Origin: an uncultured Planctomycetota bacterium
Lineage (GTDB): Bacteria > Planctomycetota > Brocadiia > CAIUPP01
Direction of reading: 5' to 3'
DNA length: 64,000 nucleotides
Assembly (NCBI GenBank): GCA_903901045.1
Contig: CAIUPP010000123.1
Coordinates: forward strand, 62,001-126,000
Shown: positions 40,288 through 50,749 of the stretch, piece by piece
How the letters are laid out: each line of letters opens with the position of its first letter
How positions within the stretch are numbered: the first letter of the stretch is position 1
Program-made: the position numbers and the translations under genes
The notes under the pieces: model-generated
The model's database searches: none
Told to the model about the DNA's origin: nothing
The model's input: only the letters and a program-made list of their open reading frames with translations

Positions 40288-42207
40288 TCAGCCCGTGCGC
40301 GTGCGCAGGACGCGCGAATCTCCCTGCCGGATCGTCACCCCTTCGCGGTCGAGCGTTTCAAGCAGGGGGAGCAGGTACTTCCGGGAGGCCCCCAGCAGAT
40401 CCCGCGCCTGCGCGATGTTCATGCTCCCATTTCGGGCGATGAACTCCACCACCTTGCTCCGGCTTTGGTCGAAGACGCCGGGCAGGATGCAGATATCCTC
40501 CGCCAGCCGCCGGATCATCCCCGCCTCCGTCATCGCCTCAAGCACTCGCTTCTGCTCGGAGGAATTCAGAGCGGCCGCGGCCGCAATCTCCAGCGGCGGG
40601 GGGGCCGAGAGTCCGGACTGCGCGAGGCTCGAAAGTATTTTGTCCCGCGCCTGCGCATAGCGCCCCACCCACTGCGGCGAGTGGCCCGCCAGCGCCAGCT
40701 TCTCGCCTGAGGCGACGACCTTCTTCTGCTCCTGCAGGAGCGCCAGCGCGATGCGGAAACATTCCCGCGTCTCCGGCGACGGCGAGCTCGCCGCCGCCAC
40801 GGCATTGAGCGGAGCGAACGGCCTCAGCGGTTCCTGCGCGTGCAGCTTCGCCATGCAGGAGACGATGGCGGACTGCATCTCCTGCACCGCGCCGCTCCCG
40901 AACCAGAAGTCCTGCCGCCCGGCGCGCGCCTCCCCCTCGGCCTGGAACTGCTCAAGCACCCCGCGCAATTCCGTCTCCAGAACGCCGCAGAGCACCTGGA
41001 GCTTGTCCAGCCGAACCCCGCGCGCGCCCGCCTTGTCGAGGGTCTCCGCGACCGTCTCGGCCAGCGCCGAACTCTCGCGCTTCGCCACCTCCTCCGCCCC
41101 CGCGCGCTTCTGCCGTTTGGGGGGGTGCGCGTCCACAATCGCGCCCCCGCCGATGACGAACATCGGCGAGTACGACCGCATGACGAACGGATCGCCCGCC
41201 ACCGCCACCAGCGCGCTTTCCAGTCGCAACTGCACCAGCGCGGATTCCCCCGGCGGAAGGCTCTCCGTCTCCAGCAGCACCACGCGCGCCATCACCTCCC
41301 GGGTCTGGTGGTGAATCCGGACGCGCGTTCGCTGCCCCAGCGCGCGCGGCGCACGCGACGAAAGGTACAGCCGCGCATCCATCATCAGGCTGGGAGCCAG
41401 CGCGCCCGGCGTGGCCAGCACGTCCCCGCGCTCCAGATCCTCCTTCGACGCGTCGGCGAGGTTCACCGCCGCGCGCTGCCCGGCGAACACCTGCTCGACC
41501 GTCTCGTTGTGCACCTGGAGATTGCGCACACGAAGGTCGAGGCCCTTCGGCAGCGCGACGACGTTCTCTCCCGTCTTCAGGCTGCCCGAAATCACCGTCC
41601 CGGTGATCACCGTCCCCGCTCCCTTGAGGGAGAAAACGCGGTCGATGGGAAGCCGGAAGATTCCCGCCGCGCTGCGCGTGCGCACGCGGGCGGCGATCCG
41701 CGCAAGCTCCTCCTGAAGCGCGGGCAACCCCTCGCGCGTGACGGAGGAGACCGGGAGCACGCGCGCCTCTTCGAGGAACGTCCCCCGGGTGAGCGTCCGG
41801 ACCTCTTCGGTGACTTCGGCGATCCGCTCGGCGGCGGCCTTGTCGCTCTTCGTGAGCGCCACAACGCCGGTGGAAATCCCCAGCGCGCGCACCACTTCGA
41901 GATGCTCCACCGTCTGCGGCATCACCCCTTCGTCCGCCGCGACGACGAAGATCACCGCGTCGATCCCCGTCACCCCCGCCACCATGTTCCGCACGAACAT
42001 TTCGTGCCCCGGCACATCCACGATGGCGGCGGAATGTTTCAGCCCCGGCAGCGGGAGGAAGGCGAAGCCCAGGTCGATCGTCATCTCCCGGGCTTTCTCT
42101 TCGGCCAGGCGGTCGGGATCGGTGCCGGTCAGCGCCAGCACCAGCGAGGACTTGCCGTGGTCCACGTGCCCCGCCGTGCCGAAAATGACGTGCCGTTCCA
42201 CGCTCAT
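40288..42207 (-). CDS. selB: Selenocysteine-specific elongation factor SelB
   Basis: This 639-residue GTPase delivers Sec-tRNA to UGA codons that carry a SECIS element. The G1 motif GTAGHVDHGKSSL opens the protein, then DVPGHE (G3) and TKSD (G4). EF-Tu-like domains II and III follow, and from about residue 380 the C-terminal winged-helix repeats bind SECIS RNA (for example QSRSKVVEFIARNGSMNIAQARDLL). It overlaps selA by four bases and is cotranscribed with it. Confidence 0.95.
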   Translation of the reverse strand: MSVERHVIFGTAGHVDHGKSSLVLALTGTDPDRLAEEKAREMTIDLGFAFLPLPGLKHSAAIVDVPGHEMFVRNMVAGVTGIDAVIFVVAADEGVMPQTVEHLEVVRALGISTGVVALTKSDKAAAERIAEVTEEVRTLTRGTFLEEARVLPVSSVTREGLPALQEELARIAARVRTRSAAGIFRLPIDRVFSLKGAGTVITGTVISGSLKTGENVVALPKGLDLRVRNLQVHNETVEQVFAGQRAAVNLADASKEDLERGDVLATPGALAPSLMMDARLYLSSRAPRALGQRTRVRIHHQTREVMARVVLLETESLPPGESALVQLRLESALVAVAGDPFVMRSYSPMFVIGGGAIVDAHPPKRQKRAGAEEVAKRESSALAETVAETLDKAGARGVRLDKLQVLCGVLETELRGVLEQFQAEGEARAGRQDFWFGSGAVQEMQSAIVSCMAKLHAQEPLRPFAPLNAVAAASSPSPETRECFRIALALLQEQKKVVASGEKLALAGHSPQWVGRYAQARDKILSSLAQSGLSAPPPLEIAAAAALNSSEQKRVLEAMTEAGMIRRLAEDICILPGVFDQSRSKVVEFIARNGSMNIAQARDLLGASRKYLLPLLETLDREGVTIRQGDSRVLRTRTG

Positions 42208-43619
42208 GACGGGCCGCGCTGGAGGGAGTCGCCCACGCCTTGAAGCGCGGCCAGGATCAGCGGCTCCTCGCCCGGCAGGATCGTGCGCGGGTCCATCAGG
42301 ACGCCCTGCTCATGCACCCGCGCGAAGACCGGCGGGTCGCTCAGGCGCAGCCGCTTGGAGAGTTCCGCCGCGGCGATTCGCTCAGAGCGCAGGCGGACGC
42401 AGACCGTCGGAAGCGAATGCCCCGCGAACGACCCACCGCCGATCTCCGAGCGTTCCTCAATCGTATCCGCGTCGAGCCAGCCGGAACACCCCTCGCGGAC
42501 CAGTCGCGCCAGCTCTTCGGCGCGCCGCTGAATCTCCTTCACCGGCATGGCCAGCAGCGCCGTCACCCGATGTTCCTGCGGCAGGCGCTCCGCATCCAGG
42601 AACAGCCGCAGCGTCCCTTCGAGGGCGGAGAGCGTCAGCTTGCAAACCCGGAAAGCGCGGTAGAAGGGGTTCTTCCGCATCGCCTGGAGCGTATCGGTCT
42701 TGCCGAGAATGATGCCGCATTGCGGCCCGCCCAGGAGTTTGTCCCCGCTGAAGAGCGCGGCATCGACCCCGGCCGCGAGGCTCTCCGGCACGTTCGGCTC
42801 GTATGGAAGACCGTATCGCCGGTAATCCAGCAGCGCGCCGCTGCCCAGGTCGTGCACGCAGGCCACTCCCTTGCTGCGCGCCAGCTTCGCCAGTTCCGCC
42901 ACCGGCGGCTGCGACGCGAACCCCTCGATGCGGTAATTGCTCTGGTGCACCGCCAGGATCAGCGCCGTGGCGGGCGTGATCGCCTTCTCATAGTCGGCTA
43001 GGTGCGTGCGGTTCGTGCAGCCCACCTCGACCAGTTGGCAACCCGCGAGTTTCAGTATCTCCGGGATGCGGAACGAGCCGCCGATCTCCACCATCTCCCC
43101 GCGCGACAGGATCACCTCGCGTCCGGACGCCAGGGTATTCAGCACCAGCACCGTGGCCGCCGCGTTGTTGTTCACCACCAGCGCCGCCTCCGCCCCGGTG
43201 ATGCGCTGCAGCAGCCCCAGCACGTGGATCTCGCGGGGGGTGCGTTCGCCGGAATCGAGGCCGGCCTGGACGTTGCAGTAACCGGCCGCCGCCTCGGCCA
43301 GCGCCTCCTGCGCCGCCGCCGAAAGGGGGGCGCGCCCGAGGTTCGTGTGAAGCGCCACCCCCGTCGCGTTCACCGCCCGGCGCAGGCTCCGCGCCGACTT
43401 GCGCCGGTAAAGCTCCATCGCGCGCGCCGCGACGGCCTCCAGTGATGCCCCGGCGGAATCTTCTCCCGCCAGCAGGCGTTGCCGCGCCTCTTCGATGGCC
43501 TCTCTCGCGGCCTCGCGCGCCAGCGGACGATGCGCCTCCGCCAGCGCGGCCATCCTGCCCTGCGCCATCAGGTCGTCAACCCGCGGCAACCGGCGCAGCA
43601 GAGGCACCTTCTCTTCCAT
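42204..43619 (-). CDS. selA: L-seryl-tRNA(Sec) selenium transferase
   Basis: The 471-residue PLP enzyme converts Ser-tRNA(Sec) to Sec-tRNA(Sec) using selenophosphate. It starts MEEKVPLLRRLPRVDDLM, typical of SelA; the PLP lysine is in FSGDKLLGGPQ (about 294). INATGV-type (VNATGVALHTNLGRAPLS) and VVNNNAAA motifs are present. I chose the ATG at 43619, with GGAG six bases upstream; the open frame continues upstream through an interspersed repeat. Its ATGA stop overlap with selB is conserved in many sel operons. Confidence 0.95.
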   Translation of the reverse strand: MEEKVPLLRRLPRVDDLMAQGRMAALAEAHRPLAREAAREAIEEARQRLLAGEDSAGASLEAVAARAMELYRRKSARSLRRAVNATGVALHTNLGRAPLSAAAQEALAEAAAGYCNVQAGLDSGERTPREIHVLGLLQRITGAEAALVVNNNAAATVLVLNTLASGREVILSRGEMVEIGGSFRIPEILKLAGCQLVEVGCTNRTHLADYEKAITPATALILAVHQSNYRIEGFASQPPVAELAKLARSKGVACVHDLGSGALLDYRRYGLPYEPNVPESLAAGVDAALFSGDKLLGGPQCGIILGKTDTLQAMRKNPFYRAFRVCKLTLSALEGTLRLFLDAERLPQEHRVTALLAMPVKEIQRRAEELARLVREGCSGWLDADTIEERSEIGGGSFAGHSLPTVCVRLRSERIAAAELSKRLRLSDPPVFARVHEQGVLMDPRTILPGEEPLILAALQGVGDSLQRGPS

Positions 43620-43652
43620 GTCTCGCTCCGATGTAATGCGCCCGTTGCACGC

Positions 43653-43702
43653 CGTCATTGCGAGGAGGCTCCCCGCAAGAGCGCGAAGATTCCCCGCAAT
43701 GA
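43653..43702. repeat. Family F repeat upstream of selA
   Basis: CGTCATTGCGAGGAGGCTCC and the matching CGCGAAGATTCCCCGCAATGA form the ends of an imperfect inverted repeat in the leader of selA. Confidence 0.65.
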
Positions 43703-43731
43703 CCCGCACGTGACGGGCGCACCGCTCTTCC

Positions 43732-43763
43732 GACCGCGCAACGCGCGGTCATTGTCCCAACGT
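43732..43763 (-). promoter_or_regulatory. Putative SECIS stem-loop of the CD1871A-like gene
   Basis: On the minus strand, 13 nt after TGA 43766-43764, an 8-bp perfect stem (GACCGCGC with GCGCGGTC) carries apical loop GTT. The loop starts 21 nt after the TGA and its first base is G, which fits the described bacterial SECIS geometry. It also lies about 110 nt upstream of selA, where E. coli has a SECIS-like regulatory element, so a regulatory role is an alternative. Confidence 0.6.
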
Positions 43764-43892
43764 TCAGGAGAAGCAGAAATTCTGCGCGTTCTTCAGCACG
43801 TAACCGGCGTCGCCATAGCGCAGCCCGATGACGAGCATCGCCGCAAAAAGCGCCGCCAGCGCGCCCGCAATGATCCACGCTTTCTTATTCAT
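43749..43892 (-). CDS. CD1871A-like small membrane peptide, probable selenoprotein with CxxU motif
   Basis: The ATG at 43892 opens a peptide with one membrane helix (AWIIAGALAALFAAMLVIGL) followed by RYGDAGYVLKNAQNFCFS, then TGA (43766-43764), then ThrLeuGlyGln and a second TGA (43751-43749). From memory, CD1871A-family peptides have the same length and end VLxKAxNICLECIGIG; aligned with that, the in-frame TGA falls on the second Cys of CxxC. Read as Sec, the protein is 47 residues and ends CFSU-TLGQ. A SECIS-like hairpin lies at the right distance, and selA-selB follow directly. If the TGA is a stop, the peptide is 42 residues. It overlaps the preceding 4Fe-4S membrane protein gene by eight bases, the usual partner of this family. 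Confidence 0.72.
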
Positions 43893-44796
43893 CTTTCTCC
43901 GCCCTCCGCTCACTGACACTGACCGCCCGGCCGGCGAGCGTTGCGGAAAGCGCTCCCTCCTCCAGGCAGTTCCGAACGCAGTCCAGGCATAACACGCACT
44001 CCGCCGTCGCTTCCTTCCGCTTCTCGCCGACCGGCACGTGGCGGCACTCCGTCGGACAGACCTTGACGCACCGCATGCAGCGCGTGCACTTCTCCTGGTC
44101 CGTCCTCAGGCGCAGGAGCGAAATTCCCGACGTGAGCGCCATCAGCGCCCCCAGCGGGCAGAGCGCCCGGCAGAAACTCCTGCGCGCGATCACCGCCAGC
44201 CCCAGCACGAGCACCATCAGGCCGATCTTCGACCAGGTGCGATAAGAAGCGTGCGCGCGTCCTTCCGCATCAGTCGCCAGGTACGGCAGGCTCCCTTCGA
44301 GCGTTCCCGCCGGGCAGACCAGCGAGCAGTAATCCAGCGCGCCGGTCTGCTCGCCCGTGATGCGCGCGTTCGGCGTCGTGCCCTTGGCGCTCCCGAAAAT
44401 CAGCGGCAGCGCCAGCACCAGCACAACCAGCAGCGCGTACTTCAGCGCGTTGAACGCCTTCGGCATGCGCCATTTCCACGTGCGAATCCGGTACAGCATA
44501 TCCTGCAGCCAGCCGAACGGGCAGGCCCAGCCGCAGAAGGCGCGCCCCACGGCCACTCCGAGGAGTCCGAGCAGCCCGATGATATAGAACGGAATGCGCC
44601 GCACCAGCGCGAAGGCCGTCAAGCTGCCGATGGGGCAGGCCACCGTCCCCACCGGGCACGAGTAGCAGTTCAGCACCGGGATGCACAGCGCCTTGCCGCC
44701 GGGGCTCAGGAAGTAGCTGTTGAAGGCCGCGAGCGAGAGCAACTGGACCGGCATCCGCCGGCCCGTCCTCCCCGTTTCACTCCTGGATTGGCTCAT
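43885..44796 (-). CDS. Membrane-bound 4Fe-4S ferredoxin-type protein (YccM/NapH-like)
   Basis: The 303-residue protein has about five helices and several cysteine clusters: CYSCPVGTVACPIG near the start, FCGWACPFGWLQD, a third CSLVCPAG, CRALCPLGA, and two classical ferredoxin motifs (CTRCMRCVKVCPTEC and CVLCLDCVRNC). It probably moves electrons across or along the membrane. Its ATG overlaps the methyltransferase gene upstream by 20 bases, and the CD1871A-like peptide follows with an eight-base overlap, which suggests a joint redox function. Confidence 0.85.
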   Translation of the reverse strand: MSQSRSETGRTGRRMPVQLLSLAAFNSYFLSPGGKALCIPVLNCYSCPVGTVACPIGSLTAFALVRRIPFYIIGLLGLLGVAVGRAFCGWACPFGWLQDMLYRIRTWKWRMPKAFNALKYALLVVLVLALPLIFGSAKGTTPNARITGEQTGALDYCSLVCPAGTLEGSLPYLATDAEGRAHASYRTWSKIGLMVLVLGLAVIARRSFCRALCPLGALMALTSGISLLRLRTDQEKCTRCMRCVKVCPTECRHVPVGEKRKEATAECVLCLDCVRNCLEEGALSATLAGRAVSVSERRAEKDE

Positions 44797-45820
44797 CCTC
44801 ACCTCGAACGGCCTGTGTCATGGCGCGCAGATGTTCCGGCGGCGTCGACGGCACCAGCCCGCAGGCCGGCGAGACGATCTGGAACTCCCGCGCCGCTCGG
44901 CGCGCCGAGCGCTGTATGGCCGAAACCGGCCCGCGTTGCAGAAGGATCGCATCCACATTTCCGATGCGGACCACGCCGGGCAGCTCCTCGCGCAGCATCC
45001 GCCCGCTGACCATCGCATCCACGCTCAGCGCCAGCCCGCCGCCGAGGCCGTCGTTCAACTGCCGCAGCGGTTCCAGCACAGGGCGCACATCGCCACATAT
45101 ATGCAGTATATGCGGCGCGCCCCCCTCGCGCAAGGAGCGAAGAAGGCGCGTGAGCGCCGGCGCCGCGAAGCGCGCAAAATGCGCCGCGCCCAGGATCTCC
45201 CCGGTCGCCGAGGGCTCCGCAACCATGACGGCATCTGCCCCCGCGGCGCGTTGCGCCAGCGCGAATTGCAGAACGAACTCCTCCGTGCGCGCCAGCAGCC
45301 GGTCGACCGTTTGCGGTTCCCGCCGCGCCAGGCGGAAGAATATCCCCGCCTCCATAATCGTCGCCGCCAGCGTCACCGGCCCGACCAGCGCCCCGATCAC
45401 CGGGTTGGAGCCGGGGGCGGCCTTCAAGCGCCGCAGCGCCTCCAGGACCGTTCTAACCCTTGGCATCTTTTCCGGATTGAACTGCGGCAGGCCCTCGATG
45501 TCGGCGGCGCCCGCGACACTCTCGGCGAGCACGCAGGGAAGCACCTCGGGCGTGCCCAGCTCCACGCGGCAACCGAGCGCTTCGGCCTCGACCGTCATGC
45601 AGAAGGGGGCGGCGAGGCACTCGAAGCCCGACTCCTCCCGCGTCGCGAGAATCAGGTCGGCCATGGCCGCGGCCTCCGAATGCGCCCGGGGCCACCCGCA
45701 GCCCGTGCGCGCCATGGCGGAGGTGGTCGCCAGCGTCATCATCCCGCCGGGGCAGATCACCGGAGGAGGCTGGACGGCCTCGCCGGCCAGGGCGCTGAGG
45801 AATCGTTCTCGTGAGTTCAT
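44777..45820 (-). CDS. MtaA/uroporphyrinogen decarboxylase-family methyltransferase (second copy)
   Basis: The 347-residue protein has the URO-D fold of corrinoid-dependent methyltransferases. The zinc ligands His and Cys are in LHICGDVRP, and the third Cys is in VSPACGLVPSTP; these are absent from true HemE. It is likely to transfer a methyl group between a methyl donor or acceptor and the corrinoid protein encoded upstream. The start is ATG 45820; the open frame extends through repeats upstream but without homology. Confidence 0.85.
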   Translation of the reverse strand: MNSRERFLSALAGEAVQPPPVICPGGMMTLATTSAMARTGCGWPRAHSEAAAMADLILATREESGFECLAAPFCMTVEAEALGCRVELGTPEVLPCVLAESVAGAADIEGLPQFNPEKMPRVRTVLEALRRLKAAPGSNPVIGALVGPVTLAATIMEAGIFFRLARREPQTVDRLLARTEEFVLQFALAQRAAGADAVMVAEPSATGEILGAAHFARFAAPALTRLLRSLREGGAPHILHICGDVRPVLEPLRQLNDGLGGGLALSVDAMVSGRMLREELPGVVRIGNVDAILLQRGPVSAIQRSARRAAREFQIVSPACGLVPSTPPEHLRAMTQAVRGEDEPIQE

Positions 45821-46070
45821 GGGTTTCCTGCGCGTTGCGGCAGATGCGCGAATGACGAATGACGAAGCCCGAATGACGAAGGAAACGCCAATGACGAAAT
45901 GCCCGCGCGCCCCTTTCTTGAGGAAAAGGGGGTCAGGCAACTTTTCCAGCAGCGGAAAAGTAGCCAGACCCCTTTTCCCGCCCCTTTTCCCCCTGGGGCG
46001 TCGCAGGAGAGCCACGCTTTTCGAGCTGGGGGTTTTGGACATTCCTTCGTCATTCGGGCTTCGGCATTCG
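45821..46070. repeat. Repeat island between the two methyltransferase genes
   Basis: The gap is almost entirely repeats: family G units in opposite orientation at its ends (45849-45898; 46038-46075) enclose the family C hairpin (45922-45978, arms GGGGTCAGGCAACTTTTCC and GGAAAAGTAGCCAGACCCC). The methyltransferase stop at 46071 lies at the edge of the right family G unit. Confidence 0.85.
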
Positions 46071-47108
46071 TCATTTCATCTGCCCATATTCCTGCACCGC
46101 GCTCATCATGGCGTCGATGTTCCGGCTGGCCGTCGCGATGGGCACCTCGCAGCCGCTTCCCAGAATGAACCCCCGCGCGCAGCCGCGCCCGATATCGCAC
46201 AGCGTGCGGACCTCGCGCGTCACATCCTCGGCGTTTCCCTTCAGCAGCGTCTGAGTCGGGCGCACGTTCCCCATCAGCCCGATGCGCCCCCCGACGCGGT
46301 CGCGAGCCTCCGCCATGGAAATATCATCCAGGCTCAGCAGGTTCGCGTTCGTCCCCACCATCGCGTCCAGAATGCGGCTCGTCTGCCCGCAGATGTGAAG
46401 CACCGCGGGGCATCCCCGGCGGCTGATGGCGCCGTGCAACTCCTTCAGGCAGGGTTGAGCGAACTCCTCGAACATGCGCAGGCTCAGCACGCTCCCCGTG
46501 GCCACGGGGTCCACCACGACGGGGATTCCCCCCGCGTCCAGAATGTCGTTCGCGAAATCGCAGGCCGTGGCGGTGGAAAGCTTCAGAAGCTTCAGCGCGA
46601 GGACGCGGTTGCGGATGAGGTCGCGCGCGAACTGGTCCGTCCCCCGCAGGCAGGCCGCCGTGGTGAAGGGGGCCGGCACGCAGCAGGAGACCGGCACCTC
46701 CGAGCCCACGGCCGCGACGGCGACCCGCACCGCCTCGATGAACAGCGGCAGCCGCCCCAGCGTGTGCGCCTGCGTGGTGACGAGCCGGCTCAGGTCGCCG
46801 GGAATCGACACGGCGGGGCGCTCCACCAGCGGCACGTCATCCTCTTGAAAATCCAGCCCCGTCCCCATCGCCTCGGCGAGGATCGCGGTATCCGAGAAGA
46901 TGGCGATCAGATCGTGCCCGTACCGTCGCCACGCGTCGGCATGGCACTGCCCCATCAGCCGGCCATCGCGGTTGTACGCGCCGACCTTCACGCCGTTCAC
47001 CCGCGCGGCGTGGTTCAGAATGAGCGGCACGCAGAGAAAACGGTCCATCGGCTTCCCGGTCAGAAAAGCCGTGAACCGCTCCTTGGGGGTCATTGTGTCC
47101 TGGCGCAT
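46071..47108 (-). CDS. MtaA/uroporphyrinogen decarboxylase-family methyltransferase (first copy)
   Basis: The 345-residue protein is related to methylcobamide methyltransferases. Zinc ligands are in LHICGQTSR, with a further Cys in FILGSGCEVP. MTPKERFTAFLTGKPMDRF at the start is typical of the MtaA/CmuA group. It overlaps the corrinoid protein gene by 19 bases and is surely cotranslated with it. The methyl substrate cannot be told from sequence. Confidence 0.87.
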   Translation of the reverse strand: MRQDTMTPKERFTAFLTGKPMDRFLCVPLILNHAARVNGVKVGAYNRDGRLMGQCHADAWRRYGHDLIAIFSDTAILAEAMGTGLDFQEDDVPLVERPAVSIPGDLSRLVTTQAHTLGRLPLFIEAVRVAVAAVGSEVPVSCCVPAPFTTAACLRGTDQFARDLIRNRVLALKLLKLSTATACDFANDILDAGGIPVVVDPVATGSVLSLRMFEEFAQPCLKELHGAISRRGCPAVLHICGQTSRILDAMVGTNANLLSLDDISMAEARDRVGGRIGLMGNVRPTQTLLKGNAEDVTREVRTLCDIGRGCARGFILGSGCEVPIATASRNIDAMMSAVQEYGQMK

Positions 47109-47749
47109 GGCAGGCTCCTTGAAAGTCGGTCGGCCAGTTCGACGGCCTCCTTCGCGTTGCGCCCGAATCCGTCCGCATCGATCTCCGCGGCGAAGCGCGC
47201 GCTCGCGGACGCGCCCCCGATCATCACCCGGAAGTCCCCCCGCAGCCCTGCTTCCTTCAACCCGCGCACCACCCGCGCCATGTTCTCCAGCGTGGTGGAC
47301 ATGAGGCTCGACAGCCCGATAATTCCCCCTCCCGCCGCGCGCGCGGCCTCGACGAACCGCTCCGCCGTCACGTTGCGCCCGAGGTCGATCACCTCATACC
47401 CCGCGGCATCCAGCAGAATCTTGACGATGTTCTTCCCGATGTCATGGATATCCCCCTCGATGACCCCGAGGATCACCTTGACCGGTTTGCGCGTGGCGTC
47501 CGCCTTGATGTGCGGCTTCAGAACGGCGATGGCCGCGTTCATGGCGTCCGAGCAGATGAGGATCTCCGGCACGAAATACTCGCCGCTGTCGTAGAGTTCC
47601 CCCACCTTGCGCATCCCGGCGGAGAGTCCCTCCGTGATGGCCAAGTATGGGTCGAGCCCTTCTGCGACGACTCGGTTCGCCGCCGCCACCGCGCGCTCCT
47701 CATCCATGGCGACCACGGCGTTCGCCAGCTCTTTGTGAAGTGGATTCAT
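47090..47749 (-). CDS. Corrinoid (B12-binding) methyl-carrier protein
   Basis: The 219-residue protein has the N-terminal helical cap of methionine-synthase-type corrinoid proteins (about 1-85) and a cobalamin-binding Rossmann domain with EGDIHDIGKNIV (the His that ligates cobalt, about 100), LSSLM and MIGGAS. It shuttles methyl groups between the methyltransferases encoded downstream. I chose ATG 47749; an upstream ATG lies in a family A palindrome. Confidence 0.92.
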   Translation of the reverse strand: MNPLHKELANAVVAMDEERAVAAANRVVAEGLDPYLAITEGLSAGMRKVGELYDSGEYFVPEILICSDAMNAAIAVLKPHIKADATRKPVKVILGVIEGDIHDIGKNIVKILLDAAGYEVIDLGRNVTAERFVEAARAAGGGIIGLSSLMSTTLENMARVVRGLKEAGLRGDFRVMIGGASASARFAAEIDADGFGRNAKEAVELADRLSRSLPCARTQ

Positions 47750-47943
47750 AGGGGGTCCCAGCCGTTCTGTGAGAGGAAATGCGTCGAATCGTGCGCGCCT
47801 CGACCGTCCGCAGGGGCAAGGCATGCCTTGCCCCTACAACATCCTGGGCTTGCTGCGTCAGAACTCATGCGAATCGAATACGCCAGGAAGTTGGTGGAGC
47901 GCGCTGTCCCCAGCGCGCTTTGGAAATACGCCGCGCGGGAGAA
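47750..47943. repeat. Repeat-filled gap between the corrinoid gene and tRNA-Sec
   Basis: A family A palindrome (47813-47834) and a family B unit (47892-47921) lie here; the latter ends 22 bases from the 3' end of the tRNA gene. No coding frame is seen. Confidence 0.8.
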
Positions 47944-48041
47944 TGGCGAGAGCGTGTGGGAATCGAACCCACCAGGGACCTTATTAGGGCCCCGCACCGG
48001 GTTTGAAGCCCGGCAAGATCCACCAGGACCCATCCGCTCCC
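47944..48041 (-). tRNA. selC: Selenocysteine tRNA (anticodon TCA)
   Basis: The minus strand gives a 98-nt tRNA with CCA encoded. The D stem is six base pairs with a four-base loop (GGGTCC-TGGT-GGATCT), a selenocysteine tRNA feature. The anticodon arm is CCGGG-CTTCAAA-CCCGG with TCA in the loop. A long variable arm (GGGGCCCTAATAAGGTCCC) follows, then the T arm GTGGG-TTCGATT-CCCAC and the acceptor strand ACGCTCTC with discriminator G. The acceptor pairs over seven base pairs plus one G-A mismatch. It reads UGA as selenocysteine. Confidence 0.93.
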
Positions 48042-49177: not shown

Positions 49178-50749
49178 CTACGCCGGCCCCTTCTCCTGCC
49201 AGAACATCATCGCCTTGCAGCCGCCGAAAGCGACCCCCATCCACGCCGCCTCGCGGACGCGCTCGGGCGCGATACCCAGGTTCCGGCATTTCTCCAGATG
49301 AATGCGCAGGCAGGGCTCGCACTGCACCGCCACCGAAAGCGCCACGATCATCAATTCCTTCTGAACGGCATCCAGCGTGCCCGGCGCGGTCACCGCCGCC
49401 ATGAACTGCTTGAACGCCTCCGGCGCGCCCGGCGCGGCGGGGGAGGCCGCCTGCGAACAACTCTCCGCCCCCGGCGCGCTCTCGACGCCGGAATGCGCGG
49501 CGCAGCAGGGCGACTGCTTGGCAGAAACTCTCGCCGGGGAATCCGTCTTCTTTCGGGTCACCACGATCTTCCCTTTCGATTTCTCGACCACCCGTCCGAT
49601 CACAGCCGCGTCGCGGCAGCCCGCGGCCCGCAACTGAGAGACCATCTCCGCAGCCTTCGCCTCCGGGAGCGCAATCAACAGCCCGCCCGAAGTCTGGGCA
49701 TCGTAAAGAATGTCCAGCGCGTGCTCAGGCAGCCCCTTCGCCGCCTCCACAAACGCGCCGGCGAACTCCCGGTTGCGTTCCGCCGCGCCGGAGCCGATCC
49801 CCTGCGCCGCGTACTCCGCAACCCCTGGCAGCAGCGGCATCGCTTCCCACCACACCTCCGCCGTCACCCCGCTCTCGCGCACCACGTGCCGCAGGTGGCC
49901 CAGCAGCCCAAACCCGGTGACGTCCGTGCACGCGTGCGCCCCCATCCGGACCATCACTTCGGAGGCGCTTTTGTTGAGCGTCGACATGGACAGCGCGGCG
50001 GCCCGCGCCGACTCCGCCGAGGCGCGGCCCATCTGCGCGGCGAATGAGATAATCCCCGTTCCGAGCGGCTTGCTCAGAATCAGCGCGTCCCCCGGCTGCG
50101 CCCCCGCGTTCGTCACAATCGCGTCCGGCCTCACCACCCCCGTCACCGCGAAGCCGAACTTGATCTCCTCCTCATTGATACTGTGCCCGCCCACCAGCAG
50201 CACCCCCGCCTCGTTCAGCTTGTCCAGTCCCCCCTTGAGCATCTGGTACATCGCCTCGTCGCCGAGGGTGTGGATCGGATAGCCGATAATGGAAAGGGCC
50301 GTCAGCGCCGCGCCCCCCATGGCATAGACGTCGCTCAGCGAATTGCACGCGGCGATCTGGCCGAACTGGTACGGATCATCCACGCAGGGGGCGAACACAT
50401 CCACCGTCTGTACCAGGCAGAGGTCGGGCGAAATCTGGAAGACCCCGGCATCATCCGCCGTCGCCAGCCCGACCAGCAGCCGCGGATCGCTGGCGGCGGG
50501 CAACCGCGAGAGGATCCGCGCCAGGTCCGCCGCGGGAATCTTCGACGCGCACCCCGCGTTCTTCATGCGCTTCATCAACCCCGGCTTCTCCGCCGAGAGC
50601 GGCTCCTCAAGCCGTTCCCCCGCGCAAAGGCAGACATCGCGCTGGAGGAAAATGTCGCACGGGCAATTCTTGCGCGGGTCGCAGATGCAGTGCCCCAGCG
50701 CCTTCGACCGGGCCATCACGCGCGCGCGTTTGGATGATGCTTCGGACAT
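49178..50749 (-). CDS. selD: Selenophosphate synthetase fused to an AhpD/CMD-like domain and a Cys-rich N-terminus
   Basis: The protein makes selenophosphate from selenide and ATP, the selenium donor for SelA. The SelD core (about 55-400) has the catalytic Cys and Lys in AGCASKIP, ATADDAGVF and VDVFAPCVDDPYQFGQI for metal and ATP binding. Before it is a cluster of CxC motifs (CICDPRKNCPCD, CLC; about 21-42). After it, from about 435 to the end (523), a carboxymuconolactone decarboxylase/AhpD-like domain has the CEPCLRIH redox pair. This three-part architecture may couple thiol chemistry to selenide delivery. AAGGA precedes the ATG. Confidence 0.9.
   Translation of the reverse strand: MSEASSKRARVMARSKALGHCICDPRKNCPCDIFLQRDVCLCAGERLEEPLSAEKPGLMKRMKNAGCASKIPAADLARILSRLPAASDPRLLVGLATADDAGVFQISPDLCLVQTVDVFAPCVDDPYQFGQIAACNSLSDVYAMGGAALTALSIIGYPIHTLGDEAMYQMLKGGLDKLNEAGVLLVGGHSINEEEIKFGFAVTGVVRPDAIVTNAGAQPGDALILSKPLGTGIISFAAQMGRASAESARAAALSMSTLNKSASEVMVRMGAHACTDVTGFGLLGHLRHVVRESGVTAEVWWEAMPLLPGVAEYAAQGIGSGAAERNREFAGAFVEAAKGLPEHALDILYDAQTSGGLLIALPEAKAAEMVSQLRAAGCRDAAVIGRVVEKSKGKIVVTRKKTDSPARVSAKQSPCCAAHSGVESAPGAESCSQAASPAAPGAPEAFKQFMAAVTAPGTLDAVQKELMIVALSVAVQCEPCLRIHLEKCRNLGIAPERVREAAWMGVAFGGCKAMMFWQEKGPA

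Follow-up and report, generated by a model that had tools for sequence, protein, structure and literature searches.

A candidate selenocysteine-containing CxxU membrane peptide encoded beside a NapH-like iron–sulfur protein in a planctomycetal selenium island

In a 64,000-nucleotide (nt) stretch of DNA from an uncultured Planctomycetota bacterium (hereafter referred to as the window), a small membrane-peptide gene contains an in-frame TGA codon followed by only four further codons and a second TGA. Does the first TGA end the peptide, or does it encode selenocysteine (Sec)? Here we report that it is very probably a Sec codon, as judged from four features of the sequence: the TGA lies at a Cys position of the CD1871A peptide family, a SECIS-like hairpin follows it, the gene sits in a selenium island, and the same layout recurs in other genomes. 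Taken as a whole, a reading in which Sec at this codon completes the CxxU tail of a CD1871A-type peptide, which in turn forms a transmembrane relay with a NapH-like protein, is likely, with less assurance than the codon assignment itself.

The peptide gene and its selenium island

The peptide gene starts at an ATG at position 43892, closely preceded by GGAG, and continues through the first TGA (43766–43764) to the second (43751–43749), its C terminus reading NFCFS-TGA-TLGQ-TGA. The peptide, its coordinates and both TGA codons had been proposed in a first-pass annotation and are all borne out by the sequence (Table 1), as is the proposed location directly upstream of selA–selB and overlapping a 4Fe–4S membrane protein gene: the NapH-like gene, with its stop codon at 43887–43885, and the peptide start share 8 nt, and selA starts (43619) 129 nt 3′ of the peptide gene. 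Gene finders would cut the peptide short at the TGA.

Table 1 Features of the peptide gene and the surrounding selenium island in the window
Feature	Position	Strand	Evidence
SECIS-like hairpin, 9 bp (8 Watson–Crick and one U–G), loop GUU	43731..43751	minus	single copy in genome
CDS of peptide MNKKAWIIAGALAALFAAMLVIGLRYGDAGYVLKNAQNFCFS-U-TLGQ, 47 aa, single TM, predicted C-terminal CxxU	43749..43892	minus	sequence and CD1871A-type profile
TGA read as candidate selenocysteine codon, aligned with second Cys of CxxC tail	43764..43766	minus	HMM alignment
NapH-like membrane protein: two C-terminal 4Fe–4S motifs, CxxxCP motifs, extra N-terminal Cys cluster	43885..44802	minus	
selA	42204..43619	minus	TIGR00474, 525 bits
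selB	40288..42207	minus	TIGR00475, 358 bits
tRNA-Sec (selC), anticodon TCA	47944..48041	minus	
selD fused to carboxymuconolactone decarboxylase/AhpD domain	49178..50749	minus	TIGR00476, 359 bits; PF02627
MtaA/CmuA-like corrinoid methyltransferase (URO-D superfamily)	44777..46042	minus	
Second MtaA/CmuA-like methyltransferase	46071..47108	minus	
Methyltransferase cognate corrinoid (B12-binding) protein	47090..47824	minus	

The minus strand carries, in order, selD-AhpD, tRNA-Sec, the corrinoid protein gene, the two methyltransferase genes, the NapH-like gene, the peptide gene, selA and selB, and the Sec machinery is complete (selA, selB, selC and selD). The methyltransferase pair and the corrinoid protein gene (44777–47824), a type 1 mlp-like arrangement, lie directly upstream of the NapH-like gene. 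The SelD-AhpD/CMD fusion begins with a Cys-rich stretch (GHCICDPRKNCPCDIF), and proteins matching a SelD-CMD query sit in the Sec islands of G003, G164, G342, G296 and other genomes. Between the peptide gene and selA, an inverted-repeat-like element (gtcattgcgggga...ctcgcaatgac) occupies positions 43640–43727 of the window, with one short second match genome-wide.

Relation to the CD1871A family

The curated CD1871A model, NF040920, gives the peptide (U read as C) 15.1 bits (E 0.015) against a cut-off of 32 bits, so that the peptide is a non-member by the rule of that model. A direct NF040920 search across the class returned weak chance matches only, and the window peptide used as a query against 58 relatives found no clear homologue. 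Wider profiles recover the peptide. An HMM built from 32 CD1871A-type peptides at NapH-like partner loci, with the window left out, scores it at 32.9 bits, a value reached by 0 of 6,000 shuffled versions, and places its U on the second family Cys, in agreement with the position assigned in the first-pass annotation. A 25-row CD1871A-type alignment, again excluding the window, was run in six frames over 343 genomes of the phylum and matched in six of them at E ≤ 0.001; besides the window peptide (E 4.8e-5 genome-wide), the matches comprise five clear CD1871A peptides. The original description of the peptide as CD1871A-like therefore stands by the wider profiles and falls short by the NF040920 cut-off, and we class it as a divergent peptide of the CD1871A type that lies beyond the curated model.

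The peptide resembles CD1871A in its length, its single transmembrane (TM) segment, its ...VL.KA.N.C..C tail and the position of its gene next to that of a NapH-like 4Fe–4S membrane protein, which belongs to the same subfamily as the CD1871A partners. It differs in having TGA at the second Cys, in ending CxxU-TLGQ rather than CxxC-IGIG, and in gene order, as the window peptide gene comes after the NapH-like gene whereas CD1871A genes come before it. The residues trailing this position are equal in number (four), as had been claimed, but the Gly thought to coincide is at +3 here (U-T-L-G) and at +2 in the family (C-I-G). The window peptide was the only CD1871A-bodied one found with candidate Sec at exactly the second Cys.

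Sec forms at related loci

The tails encoded at NapH-like loci occur in three states: CxxC, UxxC and CxxU. The CxxC state is that of CD1871A in Bacillota, Thermodesulfobacteriota, Acidobacteriota, WOR-3 and others. In the UxxC state, found in six CD1871A-type genes (at L085 (Poribacteria), L136, L138 (Chloroflexi), L139, L162 (Desulfamplus) and L164 (Deltaproteobacteria)), the first Cys is replaced by TGA and followed by conserved SCIGIG/SCIGLG; the L085 peptide, with U read as C, scores 32.8 bits, above the NF040920 cut-off. One Desulfamplus contig (L162:3104–3400) carries a tandem pair of UxxC genes (NGATLUTSCIGLG) upstream of the NapH-like gene, and a formate dehydrogenase alpha gene with a TGA is present in several UxxC genomes.

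The CxxU state, in which CPTU, CSTU, CKTU, CATU or CFSU is followed by 0–4 residues and a stop, comprises 22 genes including that of the window, that is, at least 21 other loci, in Sumerlaeota and in the window's own phylum, Planctomycetota. These genes adjoin NapH-like homologues or share a sel cluster with them, mostly within selA/B/C/D islands. Across 20 fetched regions, the CxxU and NapH-like genes are mostly accompanied by selA, selB, tRNA-Sec and/or selD; G093 and G257 have their CxxU gene across tRNA-Sec–selA–selB from the NapH-like gene. The CxxU-tail proteins of these Planctomycetota/Sumerlaeota-type Sec islands have in common with the window peptide the C-terminal CxxU, one TM segment, a NapH-like partner, the sel neighbourhood and the SECIS-like hairpin, but they form a sister group with a longer outer segment, and their profile gives the window peptide 0.6 bits (no match). 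Five CxxU products scanned against NCBIfam had no meaningful family match.

In other genomes that have selB, read-through searches recover TGA in place of a tail Cys: six CD1871A-type genes have it at the first Cys, and at least 21 sister-group genes linked to homologous NapH-like proteins have it at the second; no homologue from a genome lacking Sec machinery was seen to end at FCFS. Of 24 Sec-form genomes, 23 have a selB above the curated cut-off, compared with 26 of the 44 genomes with a Cys form; the Fisher p of 0.0014 is a guide only, because the genomes are not independent. In L110, a CxxU genome that may be an incomplete MAG, no selB above the cut-off was found.

A SECIS-like hairpin past the TGA

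The first-pass annotation had noted an 8-bp stem with a GTT loop 13 nt past the first TGA. This inner stem (43750–43732) is present as described, and counting the outer U–G pair moves the onset of the hairpin to 12 nt. A 47-nt segment folds at −18.8 kcal/mol (z −2.22), with 3 of 200 shuffles equally good; a 54-nt fold in the GC-rich window gave no z-score signal (z 0.17). An Rfam search matched nothing relevant. Two other identities for the hairpin were ruled out: a genomic repeat, as the hairpin has one copy in the genome, and a terminator, as it has no downstream T run. The second UGA sits at the base of the hairpin and would be too near the loop for this element to recode it as well.

Hairpins were compared across genes by a fixed-distance rule (a hairpin shortly past the UGA, loop 3–7). 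Under this rule, the window hairpin has 9 pairs (shuffle p 0.002), and stems of at least 6 Watson–Crick pair-equivalents follow the TGA in 17 of the 22 CxxU genes, compared with 8.2% of 487 control TGAs that end long frames (Mann–Whitney p 2.6e-11); the remaining 5 of the 22 lack a strong hairpin. Among 11 tri-loop hairpins, seven of eight pairs are changed on both sides, with covariation of 0.82 versus 0.34 in shuffled sets (0 of 500). Choosing the best stem inflates the paired fraction, a bias that does not affect the contrast with the control TGAs, which were scored by the same rule.

These observations bear on an alternative in which translation really ends at the TGA, leaving a truncated CD1871A relative without the second Cys and a hairpin that is incidental or contributes to mRNA stability. 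By default TGA is read as a stop, and the genome has no close relative against which conservation of TLGQ could be judged. Yet such a gene would have acquired a correctly spaced hairpin, single-copy in the genome, within a complete selA/B/C/D island, and would be paralleled elsewhere by TGA forms that share its layout and have covarying hairpins; we consider this explanation improbable. The recurrent TGA/Cys exchange, together with hairpins at a fixed distance that carry compensatory changes, instead supports the selenoprotein interpretation first given to this gene.

The position of the hairpin, 112–132 nt ahead of the selA start, raises the further possibility that the UGA–hairpin is mainly a regulator, at which bound SelB controls translation of selA–selB (or, in relatives, of the NapH-like gene), the peptide being secondary. 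A comparable SECIS-like control of selAB exists in Escherichia coli, where SelB autoregulation through a SECIS RNA is described (Thanbichler and Boeck 2002, as cited in PMC8124441). At L165–L168, the start region of the NapH-like gene shares sequence with the SECIS-like hairpin, an arrangement that could couple recoding to NapH-like translation. Against a mainly regulatory role, conservation extends to both the membrane body and the CxxU/CxxC motif, and it also holds in CD1871A genes outside selenium islands. We regard such a role as unlikely, if marginally less so than a true stop, and it would be compatible with a Sec-containing peptide.

The NapH-like partner and a proposed relay

The NapH-like partner carries an extra conserved N-terminal Cys cluster (C40/C46/C49/C56) and has no FMN-binding domain, and the membrane part of its predicted fold (mean pLDDT 79.5) has no solved structural match. 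A tail peptide is encoded near or beside the NapH-like gene in most cases across the phylum and the named genomes, and at nearly all of 80 named loci, with the partner itself having served as the anchor for finding peptide relatives. In a quick tree of 98 partners, those of CxxU peptides cluster (20 rows, plus two for which no tail was found), and those of CxxC/UxxC peptides occupy the opposite side, with the window partner as a long branch at their base (SH-aLRT 91); the AU test does not reject (p 0.11) a topology that places the window partner in the CxxU group. The UxxC label requires three changes on this tree.

NapH-like proteins have been proposed to carry electrons across the membrane (PMC8238504). 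The window partner shares with those extracytosolic electron transfer systems a PF12801 multi-TM iron–sulfur protein as the proposed electron mover, and differs in the missing FMN-binding domain and in having a thiol/selenol peptide as its outer partner. In the mechanism that we propose, the hairpin just past the first TGA would steer SelB with Sec-tRNA-Sec, and the second TGA would terminate the peptide. The CxxU peptide would then be anchored in the membrane by one helix and present its redox pair on the outer side, an N-in/C-out topology suggested by the positive N terminus. Electrons would pass from cytoplasmic ferredoxin or quinol through the NapH-like iron–sulfur protein to the CxxU/CxxC pair and on to an acceptor outside. 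We put forward this relay, with its topology, electron direction and acceptor, tentatively, at somewhat short of even chances.

For the Cys relatives, the acceptor is probably a TlpA/ResA-type thioredoxin. Five scanned NapH-like homologues (L107, L112, L130, L147 and L163) are fused to a C-terminal redoxin/TlpA domain, and a TlpA/redoxin gene lies in the fetched flanks of 44 of 80 CD1871A loci, compared with none of about 50 background loci. The 20 Sec-island regions and the window yielded no redoxin gene. In the window's selenium island, an oxidised or methylated selenium compound that feeds selD may serve as the acceptor, a reasonable guess because the neighbouring methyltransferases are of a type assigned to methyl-selenide recycling (PMC10418091). 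In the type 1 mlp gene clusters of that study, too, Sec machinery sits next to genes for MtaA-like methyltransferases and a corrinoid protein; the window yielded no Ram/RACE activase.

The same neighbourhood can be read differently. The tail might be a metal- or selenium-binding site, as a ligand of an Fe–S/Se centre or a selenium carrier, rather than a thiol-exchange relay, and both the partner's extra Cys cluster and the corrinoid methyltransferases linked to methyl-selenide recycling (PMC10418091) would suit such a role. The Cys relatives, fused or linked to TlpA/redoxin domains, favour thiol exchange, and we hold a binding site to be the less probable function, although a more credible alternative than either a true stop or a regulatory element. 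Continuing with the relay, it is conceivable, if doubtful, that Planctomycetota/Sumerlaeota Sec islands carry a ferredoxin-driven selenol relay, composed of the NapH-like protein and the CxxU anchor, that reduces extracytoplasmic selenium compounds for acquisition. No formate dehydrogenase alpha (TIGR01591, E ≤ 1e-60) was found in this genome (G000) or in most other CxxU genomes, so that in some genomes the CxxU peptide may rank among the main products made with the Sec machinery.

Discussion

The first-pass annotation knew of no described Sec form of CD1871A, and the sources consulted agree. In a 2026 review of prokaryotic selenoproteins (PMC13188914), Table 1 lists no CD1871A, NapH-linked peptide or CPTU-tail family, so that neither the UxxC nor the CxxU group appears in that inventory, and NF040920 and 'CXXC motif-containing' are absent from its text. 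PMC10418091 seems not to describe the peptide/NapH-like pair, because CXXC, 4Fe–4S and transmembrane are absent from its main text. A literature search returned no paper naming CD1871A, with a mention in Haft and Gwadz 2023 or Haft and Tolstoy 2025 possible. We rate as new the candidate Sec forms of the Cys family CD1871A, together with a sister group so far seen only with Sec.

Annotation truncates or misses the CxxU and UxxC genes because they are tiny and their TGA lies few codons from the end. Homology methods that need a Cys version could also miss the CxxU group, because none was found in the phylum sample; deep-Sep states the requirement for a Cys homologue as its own limit (PMC12013277). 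The present findings would add two uncatalogued selenoprotein groups, the widespread CxxU tails and the UxxC forms within CD1871A. That Cys and Sec are repeatedly exchanged at both tail positions, in association with a NapH-like carrier and with redoxins, points towards a general membrane pathway from ferredoxin to thiols, which would be an alternative to DsbD/CcdA.
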